A stretch of 64,000 bases of DNA from Telluria beijingensis (lineage in GTDB: Bacteria > Pseudomonadota > Gammaproteobacteria > Burkholderiales > Burkholderiaceae_D). Positions within the stretch are counted from its first letter, which is position 1. Every line of letters starts with the position of its first letter. Shown in pieces: positions 36,248 to 41,463 of the stretch. The stretch covers positions 3,687,072 through 3,751,071 of the forward strand of contig NZ_CP132480.1 of the NCBI RefSeq assembly GCF_030770395.1, in the 5' to 3' direction. The notes under the pieces are model-generated. The model was given only the letters and a program-made list of their open reading frames with translations. It made no database searches and was not told where the DNA came from. The translations under genes and the position numbers were made by a program.

Positions 36248-38357
<2,110 letters not shown>

Positions 38358-38396
38358 GTCTGCCGCCAAGGAGCGTGAGCTCCTGGCAGCCGGCCG

Positions 38397-38402
38397 ATTA
38401 TA
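38397..38402 (-). promoter_or_regulatory. -10 element of the thi operon
   Basis: Perfect TATAAT on the minus strand, which would start RNA near 38390, about 33 nt before the aptamer. The -35 position (about 38420-38425) reads AGTCCA, a poor match, and touches the target duplication of the adjacent foldback element. Confidence 0.7.
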
Positions 38403-38427
38403 GCCCAATCGTTTTTCGGTGGACTAG

Positions 38428-38588
38428 GGAAGCACTGATTTATTCTGGCGCGCAGGAATCGGTCACGAAAAATGTGCCCGGCAAGGCGCAAACCGGAGCG
38501 ATACCCAGTGGTATCGCGAGGATTTGCAACGCCGCAGGGCGCATTTTCTCGTGGCCGAGGCCGCCGCCATGAATAAATCAGTGCTTCC
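38428..38588. mobile_element. 161-bp foldback MITE-like element, IS5-type signature
   Basis: Perfect 18-bp terminal inverted repeats GGAAGCACTGATTTATTC / GAATAAATCAGTGCTTCC, flanked on both sides by CTAG (38424-38427 and 38589-38592). CTAG fits the YTAR target duplication of IS5-group elements, although CTAG is itself palindromic and could belong to the repeat. The interior is also an imperfect palindrome centred near 38508 (CACGAAAAATG ... CATTTTCTCGTG; GCGATACC.. GGTATCGC). No coding capacity is present, so any transposition would need a transposase in trans. Confidence 0.85.
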
Positions 38589-38608
38589 CTAGAATCGATG
38601 CGGAGCGA

Positions 38609-39016
38609 TTACATCATGGGCGGCTCCTGTTCCAGCGCGTGCAGCTGCAGTTCTCCGTTCACGAAGCGCACCTCGACGAAGGGCGTGCGCGCCGGCTCGA
38701 TGGCGCGCACGACGGGCGGCCCGTCATCGACCGCGACTTCGAGCCGCACGCTGTCGGCGCTGGTCTTGACGTCGACCGAGTCCGCACGCGAGATCGTCCA
38801 GTCGGTGCTGACGCCGGAACGCTGGTACACCTGCTTGCCATCGACCAGCACGCTCACGGTATTGTTCTGGAAGCCTTCGCCTAACCTCACGCGTAATGTC
38901 ATGACCCGCCCCTCCTCAGATATCGACGCGGGAGCGCCGGACAGGCTGCGCTCCCCGCATGCCTGTCCGGACAATCCCAGCACCAGCAAGACAGCAATCC
39001 AGGCCAGGCGCCTCAT
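38609..39016 (-). CDS. Small exported protein downstream of the metzincin
   Basis: A 135-residue protein with a signal peptide ('LAWIAVLLVLGLSGQACGE'). The cysteine could be lipidated, but the -2 glutamine is not a good lipobox. The mature part looks beta-rich, with 'EGFQNNTVSVLVDGKQVYQR' and a proline-containing C-terminus. I recognise no family. The ATG overlaps the protease stop (ATGA), so the two genes are translationally coupled and probably act together, for example as an inhibitor, chaperone or anchor; that is inference. Confidence 0.72.
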   Translation of the reverse strand: MRRLAWIAVLLVLGLSGQACGERSLSGAPASISEEGRVMTLRVRLGEGFQNNTVSVLVDGKQVYQRSGVSTDWTISRADSVDVKTSADSVRLEVAVDDGPPVVRAIEPARTPFVEVRFVNGELQLHALEQEPPMM

Positions 39017-41142
39017 TCTTTCTCAGGCCTCCCGAAAACCTGGGTCGTGATCTGGTTCAGTGTATCTTGCGCGGCACGCTCGTCCCCGCTCGCCATCTGG
39101 ACACAGGACAGGGTGTACCGCACTTCGTCCTCGGACACCGGATCGAGCACGTGGGTACCGGCCACGCTCGCGAGCAAGGCGATGCTTTCCTCCTTGTTGG
39201 CGGCGCGCACGGTGACCGGCCGGCCCTTGCCCGCATTGACGGTCTTGAACACGCGCCCGGCGTTGATGCCCTTGATCATGCGCGCATAGGTGGCCATCGG
39301 ATGGGCGCCGAAGCGGTCGATCACCTCGTCGAAGGCGGCATTGCCGGAGCGGAGCGTCACGTTGTCCGAACCTTGCAGGTAGAGCAGCACGCCCTGGTCG
39401 TCGCCCATGAACAGGTCGGCCAGCGTGTCTTCGTCGCGCGTGACCGGGTAGCGCACCCGGATCGTCAGGATGTCGGACAGCACCTGCGAGCCGTCGAGCG
39501 CCGCATAGGCCGCACGCACCCGGTATTGCCCCGGCTGGTCGAAGTAGAAGCCGCCCTTGCCGTAGCCGATATAGGCGCTGTCGCGCACCTCGTCGTCGAC
39601 GCCGAGCACTTGCTGGCGCTCGCCGACCAGGTGGTCGATCATCGGCTCGTAGGCAACCACTTGGCCGCTCGGCTTGCTGATGACGATCCTGACCATGCCG
39701 AAATCGGGATGCAGCCAGGTGTGGGCACGCCGCCCGCGGGTGGTGGTGGCCTTGAGCTTGAGCTCGAGCACGACCGGTTCGCCCAGCGCGAAACTGCGCT
39801 GGTGGGTCGAGATCCCCAGCACCAGCCCCGACTCGTCCGCGATCGGATCGGCCAGTACCTCACGGCCCAGCGACGAGCCGACGATGAAGTTGTTGCCGCC
39901 CATGATGACGTCGTTGCGGAAGCCATGGCGCAGGTGGATCAGTTCCTCGTCGTCGAAGCGGAAATCGAAACTGCTCCAGAAACCGGCCGGCCCGCCTTTC
40001 GGGTAGTACCACGGGTAGTTCATCCACGACAGCGCATCCGGCCGGTCTGGCTTGGGCGGCGATGCGAGCGACTTCTGCCATGAGTGCAGGAGGTTGAAGC
40101 AATGCCCGAGCTCGTGCACATAGGTGTAGAGCTGCAGCCGCTGCTGCTCGGCCGAGGCGCCGCCGATGCCCGCGTTGAACACGGCGCAGCCCTGGCGCTG
40201 CTTGCCCTGCTGGTCGAACATGATGCCGTACAGGCCGCTGCCATAGTCGTGCTGCTGGGCGACCAGTTGCCACACGCACCATTGCTGCACATCGCTCCAG
40301 AGGGTGAAATGGGTCTGCATCGAGGCGTGCAGCTCGGCATTGCTCCAGGCGGCGTTCGCCTGCGCTTCGGAGATATTGATCACGTTATTGCCGCCGGTCG
40401 GCACCATGCCGATGCCGGCTTCGCCGAAGGCGCTCACCACGCTGAGGTTGCGCGCACTGCCGCCCGACGGCAGCGAGCCGGTGTCATAGCTGGCGAAGGT
40501 CGAGCCGACCAGGTCGGACACGCTGTCTGTCTCGATCCTGACGGTGCGGAAATGCAGCGACGAGAACGGGCAATGATAGGAGGCGCCCGGTGCATTGGTC
40601 ACGGTGAAGAATTGCAGGGTGGCGGCCGCCTGCGGCTGCAGGATGTTGACCCGCGGGATCGTGACCTGCACCACCGGCGCACCGGCCGCGAAGGTAAAGC
40701 GGCCCATGCCCTTGACCACGACCTTGGAACTGCTGACCGTGATCGTCGGGCTGTCCACCACGAAGGAACCGAAGTACGAGGTGGTCTTGCCGACGGTCTG
40801 GTAGAAGTCGCCGCTCACCCGCTTCATGGGGCGGCTGCGGTCGACGTCGACCCGCAAGTCGACCTGGAAGGCGCCCAGCGTCCCGGCATAGCAGCCGCTG
40901 ACCGCCTTCTTGATCGGCAGCGGGATAGGCGGTATCGGGAATTTCGGGATCGGCGCAGGCGGCACATGCGGGATCGGCGGCGCCTCGGGCAAGGCGCCGG
41001 TCGGGGCCGTATCATGGGGTTCATGGAGCCCCAGTTCGCCATTGGTCAGCCCGGAAATCTCTTCATAGCTCATCTGCCCCCTGTCTTCCAGCAACGCCTC
41101 TTCACCGGCGTTTTCAACCCCAGTTGGATCAATTTGTGACAT
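39013..41142 (-). CDS. Metzincin-like zinc metalloprotease without signal peptide
   Basis: A 709-residue protein. Residues 1-50 are acidic, 51-77 are proline-rich (alternating Pro-Ile/Val) and the rest is folded. The zinc site is HELGHCFNLLH (His343, Glu344, His347, His353), with Asn where classical metzincins have Gly, followed by a Met-turn 'LSWMNYPW' at Met374. The C-terminal half contains beta-sandwich-like segments ('LGEPVVLELKLKATTT', 'GGFYFDQPGQYRVRAAY'). No signal peptide, membrane segment or lipobox is seen. AAGGAG sets the start. The substrate is unknown. Confidence 0.82.
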   Translation of the reverse strand: MSQIDPTGVENAGEEALLEDRGQMSYEEISGLTNGELGLHEPHDTAPTGALPEAPPIPHVPPAPIPKFPIPPIPLPIKKAVSGCYAGTLGAFQVDLRVDVDRSRPMKRVSGDFYQTVGKTTSYFGSFVVDSPTITVSSSKVVVKGMGRFTFAAGAPVVQVTIPRVNILQPQAAATLQFFTVTNAPGASYHCPFSSLHFRTVRIETDSVSDLVGSTFASYDTGSLPSGGSARNLSVVSAFGEAGIGMVPTGGNNVINISEAQANAAWSNAELHASMQTHFTLWSDVQQWCVWQLVAQQHDYGSGLYGIMFDQQGKQRQGCAVFNAGIGGASAEQQRLQLYTYVHELGHCFNLLHSWQKSLASPPKPDRPDALSWMNYPWYYPKGGPAGFWSSFDFRFDDEELIHLRHGFRNDVIMGGNNFIVGSSLGREVLADPIADESGLVLGISTHQRSFALGEPVVLELKLKATTTRGRRAHTWLHPDFGMVRIVISKPSGQVVAYEPMIDHLVGERQQVLGVDDEVRDSAYIGYGKGGFYFDQPGQYRVRAAYAALDGSQVLSDILTIRVRYPVTRDEDTLADLFMGDDQGVLLYLQGSDNVTLRSGNAAFDEVIDRFGAHPMATYARMIKGINAGRVFKTVNAGKGRPVTVRAANKEESIALLASVAGTHVLDPVSEDEVRYTLSCVQMASGDERAAQDTLNQITTQVFGRPEKE

Positions 41143-41463
41143 GGTTGTTCTCCTTGATGCCCATTCATCGCGTGCGCAGTCAGCAAAGCAGCCGCGGCCC
41201 TGGTCGGTACAAGTCATCTTCCTTTGCAGGCGGATGTGGTGCTTGGACCGTCGGGATACGCCGATCGATTCGTCGAGTCCGCCGGGATTCGGCGTGATCG
41301 GTGTCGCGTCTAGAGGAAAATCAAAGGAACTTCAGTAAGTCGGCAAGGGCATGAATGCGAAGGCGCCGGATGCCCGTTTTCCGCCGATGCCGCCGGGATA
41401 GGCTGGCGATTCAAGGTGACCTATAATGGTTCTTTCGCAAAAAATTTCACTTACCAGCACATC
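41143..41463. other. Divergent intergenic region, metzincin operon / valS
   Basis: These 321 bases contain no credible ORF. The only strong signal is the valS -10 at 41422-41427. The metzincin side shows only its Shine-Dalgarno (AAGGAG on the minus strand near 41153); no promoter could be picked. Confidence 0.5.
41422..41427 (+). promoter_or_regulatory. -10 element of valS
   Basis: Perfect TATAAT 37 bp before the ATG at 41464. No good -35 is visible. Because transcription would begin near 41434, the in-frame GTG at 41416 cannot be the translation start. Confidence 0.65.

Follow-up and report, generated by a model that had tools for sequence, protein, structure and literature searches.

We analysed a stretch of 64,000 nucleotides of the Telluria beijingensis genome (the window), in which a short foldback element lies between the expected promoter of the thi genes and an upstream operon (Table 1). 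The TPP riboswitch that follows this promoter is the sole Rfam match in the window. On the other side of the element, the nearest ORF encodes 135 amino acids, has no Pfam or NCBIfam match, and likewise precedes the thi promoter in some relatives. Further upstream, a 734-aa ORF (39013-41217, minus strand) matches nothing in Pfam or NCBIfam at E <= 0.001. It contains an HELGH stretch, which we take to be a zinc-metalloprotease-like motif.

Table 1. Features at and around the foldback element (window coordinates).
Feature	Position	Strand	Remark
thiC (name and start inferred); start at MNAPLKFD within a longer ORF, 36248-38251	36248..38173	-	ORF list
TPP riboswitch (RF00059), downstream of TATAAT	38248..38364	-	58.3 bits (gathering 54.3)
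TATAAT, expected -10 of the thi promoter, perfect	38397-38402	-
-35-like hexamer TAGTCC, 18-bp spacing; left as before by the insertion	38421..38426	-	3/6 against TTGACA
CTAG target duplication, thi side	38424..38427		about -37 to -34 of the expected thi promoter
Foldback MITE, 161 bp, without a long coding frame	38428..38588
Terminal inverted repeat GGAAGCACTGATTTATTC	38428..38445	+	18/18 against the right end of IS5-family element L072
Asymmetric hairpin core (model R1), common to elements with other ends	38476..38542	-	89.5 bits
Terminal inverted repeat, second copy, perfect	38571..38588	-
CTAG target duplication, upstream-operon side	38589..38592
135-aa ORF, ends 16 bp before the element	38609..39016	-	ORF list

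Read directly, positions 38424-38592 consist of CTAG, a 161-bp body and CTAG. The inverted-repeat arms (38424-38445 and 38571-38592) measure 22 nt each and are 100% complementary, which corresponds to an 18-bp terminal inverted repeat (TIR) plus CTAG. A sequence-only reading that preceded this work had described 161 bp with perfect 18-bp terminal repeats and CTAG on both sides, and both the direct reading and the arm measurement show this to be accurate. Even with up to 3 mismatches allowed, the window contains the TIR at the two element ends only (chance expectation, 0.03 matches). The element contains no transposase gene, its longest stop-free stretch being 53 codons. RNA of the minus strand is predicted to fold with -107 kcal/mol (z = -13.6), and none of 200 shuffled sequences was equally stable; the long hairpin foreseen in the sequence-only reading thus stands as a predicted fold.

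A single full-length match was found in T. beijingensis (33/33 candidates scored), where the TIR, with up to 1 mismatch allowed, occurs at this place only. Across the genus the TIR is present in 19 of 62 genomes, own included, and element DNA is matched in 26 of 199 relatives' genomes, again own included (best 4 candidates or fewer per genome). Outside the genus, it is the middle of the element alone that matches. Congeners such as G021 and G059 hold several copies by the same count, and the own genome holds one. We could delimit 25 copies in the genus, 159-175 bp long, of which ten have identical 4-bp flanks (nine CTAG, one CTAA) and 15 do not. Four genus copies (L008, L010, L011 and L030) are 174-175 bp long, with about 14 bp extra, and their added bases lie in one arm beside the core.

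The thi region is matched in all 62 genus genomes. We fetched the thi loci of 29 of the 61 relatives with such a match and found the TIR in none of them (0/29, up to 3 mismatches). In the eight relatives that were aligned at the insertion site, this site reads CTGC, CTGG or is further diverged, and none has an exact CTAG. The sequence-only reading had named copy number and empty sites among its checks. The own genome has one copy, and the 29 fetched thi loci of relatives, free of the element, agree with an insertion. The anatomy, the congeners and the relatives without the element show that it inserted at a CTAG, some 37 bp ahead of the point where thi transcription is expected to start, and duplicated the CTAG.

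Did the insertion alter the thi promoter? The sequence-only reading had noted a perfect -10, a poor -35 and an element end at the expected -35, and each of these observations holds: the -10 is TATAAT, no hexamer exceeds 3/6, and the proximal CTAG is overlapped. It had gone on to propose that the insertion replaced or tuned the -35. We reconstructed the empty site by joining both element flanks at one CTAG and aligned it with the thi upstream region of eight relatives, of which G060, G011 and G020 aligned best. The 25 bases from the proximal CTAG to the -10 are unchanged, and all hexamers spaced 15-19 bp from the -10 are therefore identical whether or not the element is present. Among these, TCCACC at 15-bp spacing ties with TAGTCC (3/6 against TTGACA), and AGTCCA at 17-bp spacing, which overlaps the proximal CTAG, scores 2/6. 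Since the best hexamer is 3/6 both ways, and since the -35s are just as poor in the eight relatives without the element (best 2 to 4 of 6), the insertion is not the cause of the poor -35. Neither replacement nor tuning of the -35 is thus supported, and replacement was rejected on two grounds, the target duplication and the relatives without the element; the insertion left as before the -10, the spacer and all hexamers in the 15-19 bp range.

What did change lies upstream of about -37 only, where ATCGCTCCGCATCGATT was shifted away and AATAAATCAGTGCTTCC now stands. Because G011 and G060 are A/T-rich upstream of about -37, a UP-element effect is conceivable. Could the element then matter for thi control, either by having replaced or tuned the -35 or by bringing a promoter part of its own, and be retained for that reason? 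Its end adjoins a promoter with a poor -35, and this proximal end is somewhat A/T-rich at what may be a UP-element position. Yet the hexamers are the same with and without the element, a consensus scan of 38200-38800 detected no promoter-like site, and the element is missing from all 29 thi loci fetched from relatives, so that we consider such a role very doubtful. The same scan detected no terminator-like site, and an outward promoter or terminator in the element was accordingly rejected.

A second possibility is that the hairpin marks a transcript boundary, where it would end, protect or be cut from read-through RNA of the upstream operon and so shield thi. The element starts 16 bp past the upstream stop codon, its predicted fold is very stable, and RNase cleavage of MITE-containing transcripts is described in the review PMC10969869. 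Against this, 38200-38800 has no terminator-like site with a T run, and a single insertion that no relative shares shows no sign of being kept; a boundary function appears improbable, if less so than a role in promoter control. Any effect on thi would be confined to sequence beyond about -37 and to a long hairpin formed in upstream-operon read-through RNA. For the thi operon the outcome is an ordinary one, an insertion that spares the -35.

What is the origin of the element? MITEs are commonly assigned to an insertion sequence by their ends. Congeners contain elements of about 1.2 kb that are bounded by the same ends and encode an IS5-family transposase (NF033581, transpos_IS5_4, E 9e-100; Pfam DDE_Tnp_1). 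The match of the TIR to the right end of one of them, L072, is complete, which supports the IS5-group origin put forward in the sequence-only reading. Both ends could be seen in eight IS copies, four with identical YTAR flanks and four without. At E <= 1e-30 the transposase was found in 11 of 62 genus genomes, some of its copies broken or partial, and not in the own genome (10/10 candidates scored). Homology between the L072 copy and the MITE is confined to the 18-bp end, and a comparison with five IS copies gave, past the ends, only chance matches of 9-11 bp (E 0.18 or worse). Because the ends are the same, the homology is confined to them and the enzyme is missing here, we class the element as an IS5-group type II MITE whose genome presently lacks that transposase. 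Its single own-genome copy is probably stranded.

The MITE therefore shares with IS5-group insertion sequences the 18-bp end and the CTAG/YTAR target type. In contrast to them, it has no transposase gene, has nothing but the end in common with them, carries the right-type end on both sides, and contains a core that is missing from the IS copies searched. To follow this core we built a covariance model (R1) from the core alone, with the TIRs excluded and the window copy in the training set. The core as part of the parent IS was rejected, as R1 had no match in 12 loci of IS copies and 99-bp elements. These 99-bp elements belong to the congener G019 (L067, L068 and L069), where four identical copies with near-identical ends and CTAG or CTAA duplications are coreless; they represent a second MITE of the same IS group. 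Since this element stands in four copies without a core, IS5-type transposition seems not to need one.

Outside the genus, the matching middle sits in foldback elements that are also about 160 bp long but carry other ends. The core is a 67-bp asymmetric hairpin at the centre of such elements in Burkholderiales and beyond, and their TIRs are unrelated. Probing with an exact 19-mer of the core yielded at least 120 loci in named genomes. Among the matches listed, 98 of 126 core places have symmetric TIRs, and 83 of the 98 elements so bounded measure 156-171 bp; the remaining 28 core places have no TIR by the rule used, many of them at contig edges, and most of the 11 that were read appear by eye to have decayed ends. 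At least three end classes could be distinguished: IS5-like ends flanked by YTAR, TA-GTG ends, and GAAC ends whose flanks are mostly TNA. The window element fits this group in its central core, its length and its symmetric TIRs.

The core also occurs in a second foldback element of the own genome, L255, which lies outside the window (G000:C1:3419841-3420001). It has perfect TAGTGTCCTGAATTGGAAGTT ends, measures 161 bp including TA, and its core is diverged (41 bits).

For the profile and the tree we left out two rows of class 'other' and any row shorter than 150 or longer than 185 bp; thinning of near-copies then brought 101 elements down to 51. In this non-redundant set of 51 elements conservation reaches 1.5-1.95 bits per column in the core arms, the left one being biased by the exact 19-mer that found most loci and the right one unbiased, compared with 0.96 in the loop and 0.30-0.91 in the remainder. 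When 40 cores were compared, 96% of cells were paired and 9 of 20 pairs had changed on both sides, a pairing that exceeds 500/500 shuffles and all slid versions. Two T.G pairs are nearly invariant (39/40 and 37/40 cores), which suggests that a folded single strand, RNA above all, fits better than double-stranded DNA. Rfam had no family for positions 38380-38640 up to E 5, and the core was thus rejected as a known RNA family.

R1 extended the range of the core well beyond the genus. With the own genome included in each count and the best candidates per genome scored, it matched, at E <= 1e-4, 97 of 399 genomes from Burkholderiales and 47 of 274 from the class; of the latter 47, 45 are listed under other orders. 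At E <= 1e-6 it matched 22 of 398 genomes of the phylum, including nine outside the class; these phylum-level matches are to the core model. On plasmids, 2 of 72,556 records matched, in the core part only. Are these places also mobile elements? Core-model places lie centrally in a TIR-bounded element in 30 of 51 cases, compared with 6 of 1196 places picked at random from those loci, and 21 of 51 have no TIR by the rule used (6 of 57 loci were excluded for cut flanks, and L220, L227 and L230 had trained the model).

Strong hairpins might resemble one another by convergence or chance, and the foldback elements found here are indeed all palindromic and G+C-rich. However, what is conserved includes the sequence, the asymmetric internal loop and the two T.G pairs, and the excess of core-only matches in TIR-bounded elements is far above random; convergence or chance is scarcely credible as the source of the likeness.

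Are the ends replaced while the core stays? One Comamonas genome provides the sharp case, and the only one: it contains L154, which has GAAC ends with TTA flanks, together with L113, L130 and L104, which have IS5-like ends. In a gapped alignment L154 and L113 agree at 62/64 positions of the core, 42/56 of the arms and 28/44 of the ends, the last a level reachable by gaps alone. In its arms L154 is close to L113, L130 and L104, as only 0-14 of 2000 shuffles were as good. Its 18-bp ends show no resemblance to theirs (323-1885 of 2000 shuffles as good), and as a yardstick the ends of L113 and L130 are alike (0/2000). Thus, with arms alike and ends unlike, the likeness stops at the TIR border.

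We then consider the tree of the 51 interiors, from which 24 nt were cut at each end. The end class needs 4 changes on this tree (minimum 2), and the starred branches force 2 to 3 per class; 27 of 48 inner branches are weak. L154, with its TNA-GAAC ends, falls within a supported clade of IS5-type interiors (100/95), and the other two TNA rows stand elsewhere (100/92). The lineage of the window element groups (98/82) with TA-GTG elements, including the second core element of the own genome, a long branch whose placement is unsure.

Alternatively, the ends may not have been replaced at all: a single old core lineage could have kept its transposase group, with the ends drifting along as that group slowly diverged. 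The IS5 family is known to include both TNA and YTAR targets. Element length stays at about 160 bp whatever the ends, among the matches listed, and the TIR classes cluster strongly on the tree of interiors, none of 200 shuffles being as low. However, gradual drift is hard to reconcile with L154 lying inside a supported IS5-type clade apart from the other two TNA rows, or with arms alike and ends unlike within one genome, and we regard it as unlikely, if the most serious of the alternatives.

Our preferred reading, to which we give a probability of roughly 0.78, is that the window element is an IS5-group type II MITE that spared the promoter and belongs to a group built around the core, in which ends were exchanged on more than one occasion. 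The GGAAGCACTGATTTATTC ends would have been recognised in trans by an IS5-family transposase. Arm homology, the sharp change at the TIR border and the tree together indicate that ends were swapped more than once for ends of other target classes. As a possible route, one arm would gain new ends and the other arm would be copied from it through the foldback. If the ends were replaced, the transposases would have been replaced too, which is the best reading of the core-bearing MITEs, and the sequences suggest that such mini-transposons can change the enzyme they depend on. More tentatively, and at slightly less than even odds, the core persists across Pseudomonadota in MITEs that repeatedly exchange TIRs and transposase, kept by selection and not for the transposition of any one enzyme; the two nearly invariant U.G pairs and the conserved internal loop make a structured RNA a candidate for what is selected.

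Type II MITEs of prokaryotes are described in PMC10969869 as shorter than 500 bp, with TIRs, a target duplication, a stable stem-loop and IS homology confined to the TIRs. All of these traits recur in the window element. An interior core common to elements with different TIRs, in contrast, goes unmentioned in the part of that paper available to us. The Correia elements of Neisseria and QMITE1/2 of Coxiella, compared by their description in the same part, are likewise foldback, mostly intergenic and able to enter transcripts, but are presented as families of particular hosts and not as one core with several end types. For a MITE in a host of the Burkholderiales, that review cites the genome paper of Polaromonas JS666 (PMC2570305). 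Titles and abstract starts of the open-licence literature gave no account of the core or of interior-sharing MITEs with unlike ends, for which Polaromonas JS666 is a possible precedent. Because the interior is conserved and the ends are variable, a classification by ends would break up one lineage into many families. The finding matters more for mobile DNA than for the thi operon, and what deserves follow-up is the shared core and its varying ends. If end replacement is true, it would offer non-autonomous elements a route to outlive the loss of their IS, and the reason for retaining the hairpin would become directly testable.

Which transposases would serve the other ends? We searched for autonomous partners of TAGTGTAGTG ends (11 genomes), TAGTGTNCTGYCCCG ends (10 genomes), GAACGTG ends (at least 8 genomes, 20 stretches read) and TAGTGTCCTGARTTG ends (399 genomes), and found none among the places listed. 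These places consist of short elements, single ends and contig ends, with no facing end pair about 1 kb apart. As no autonomous partner was found for TA-GTG or TNA-GAAC ends, the case for other transposases is drawn from ends and targets. The Comamonas genome G789 (L281 and L282) contains 266-bp elements in many copies, with GAACCTGTTCACG ends and TCA duplications, which are apparently another MITE type of the TNA class.
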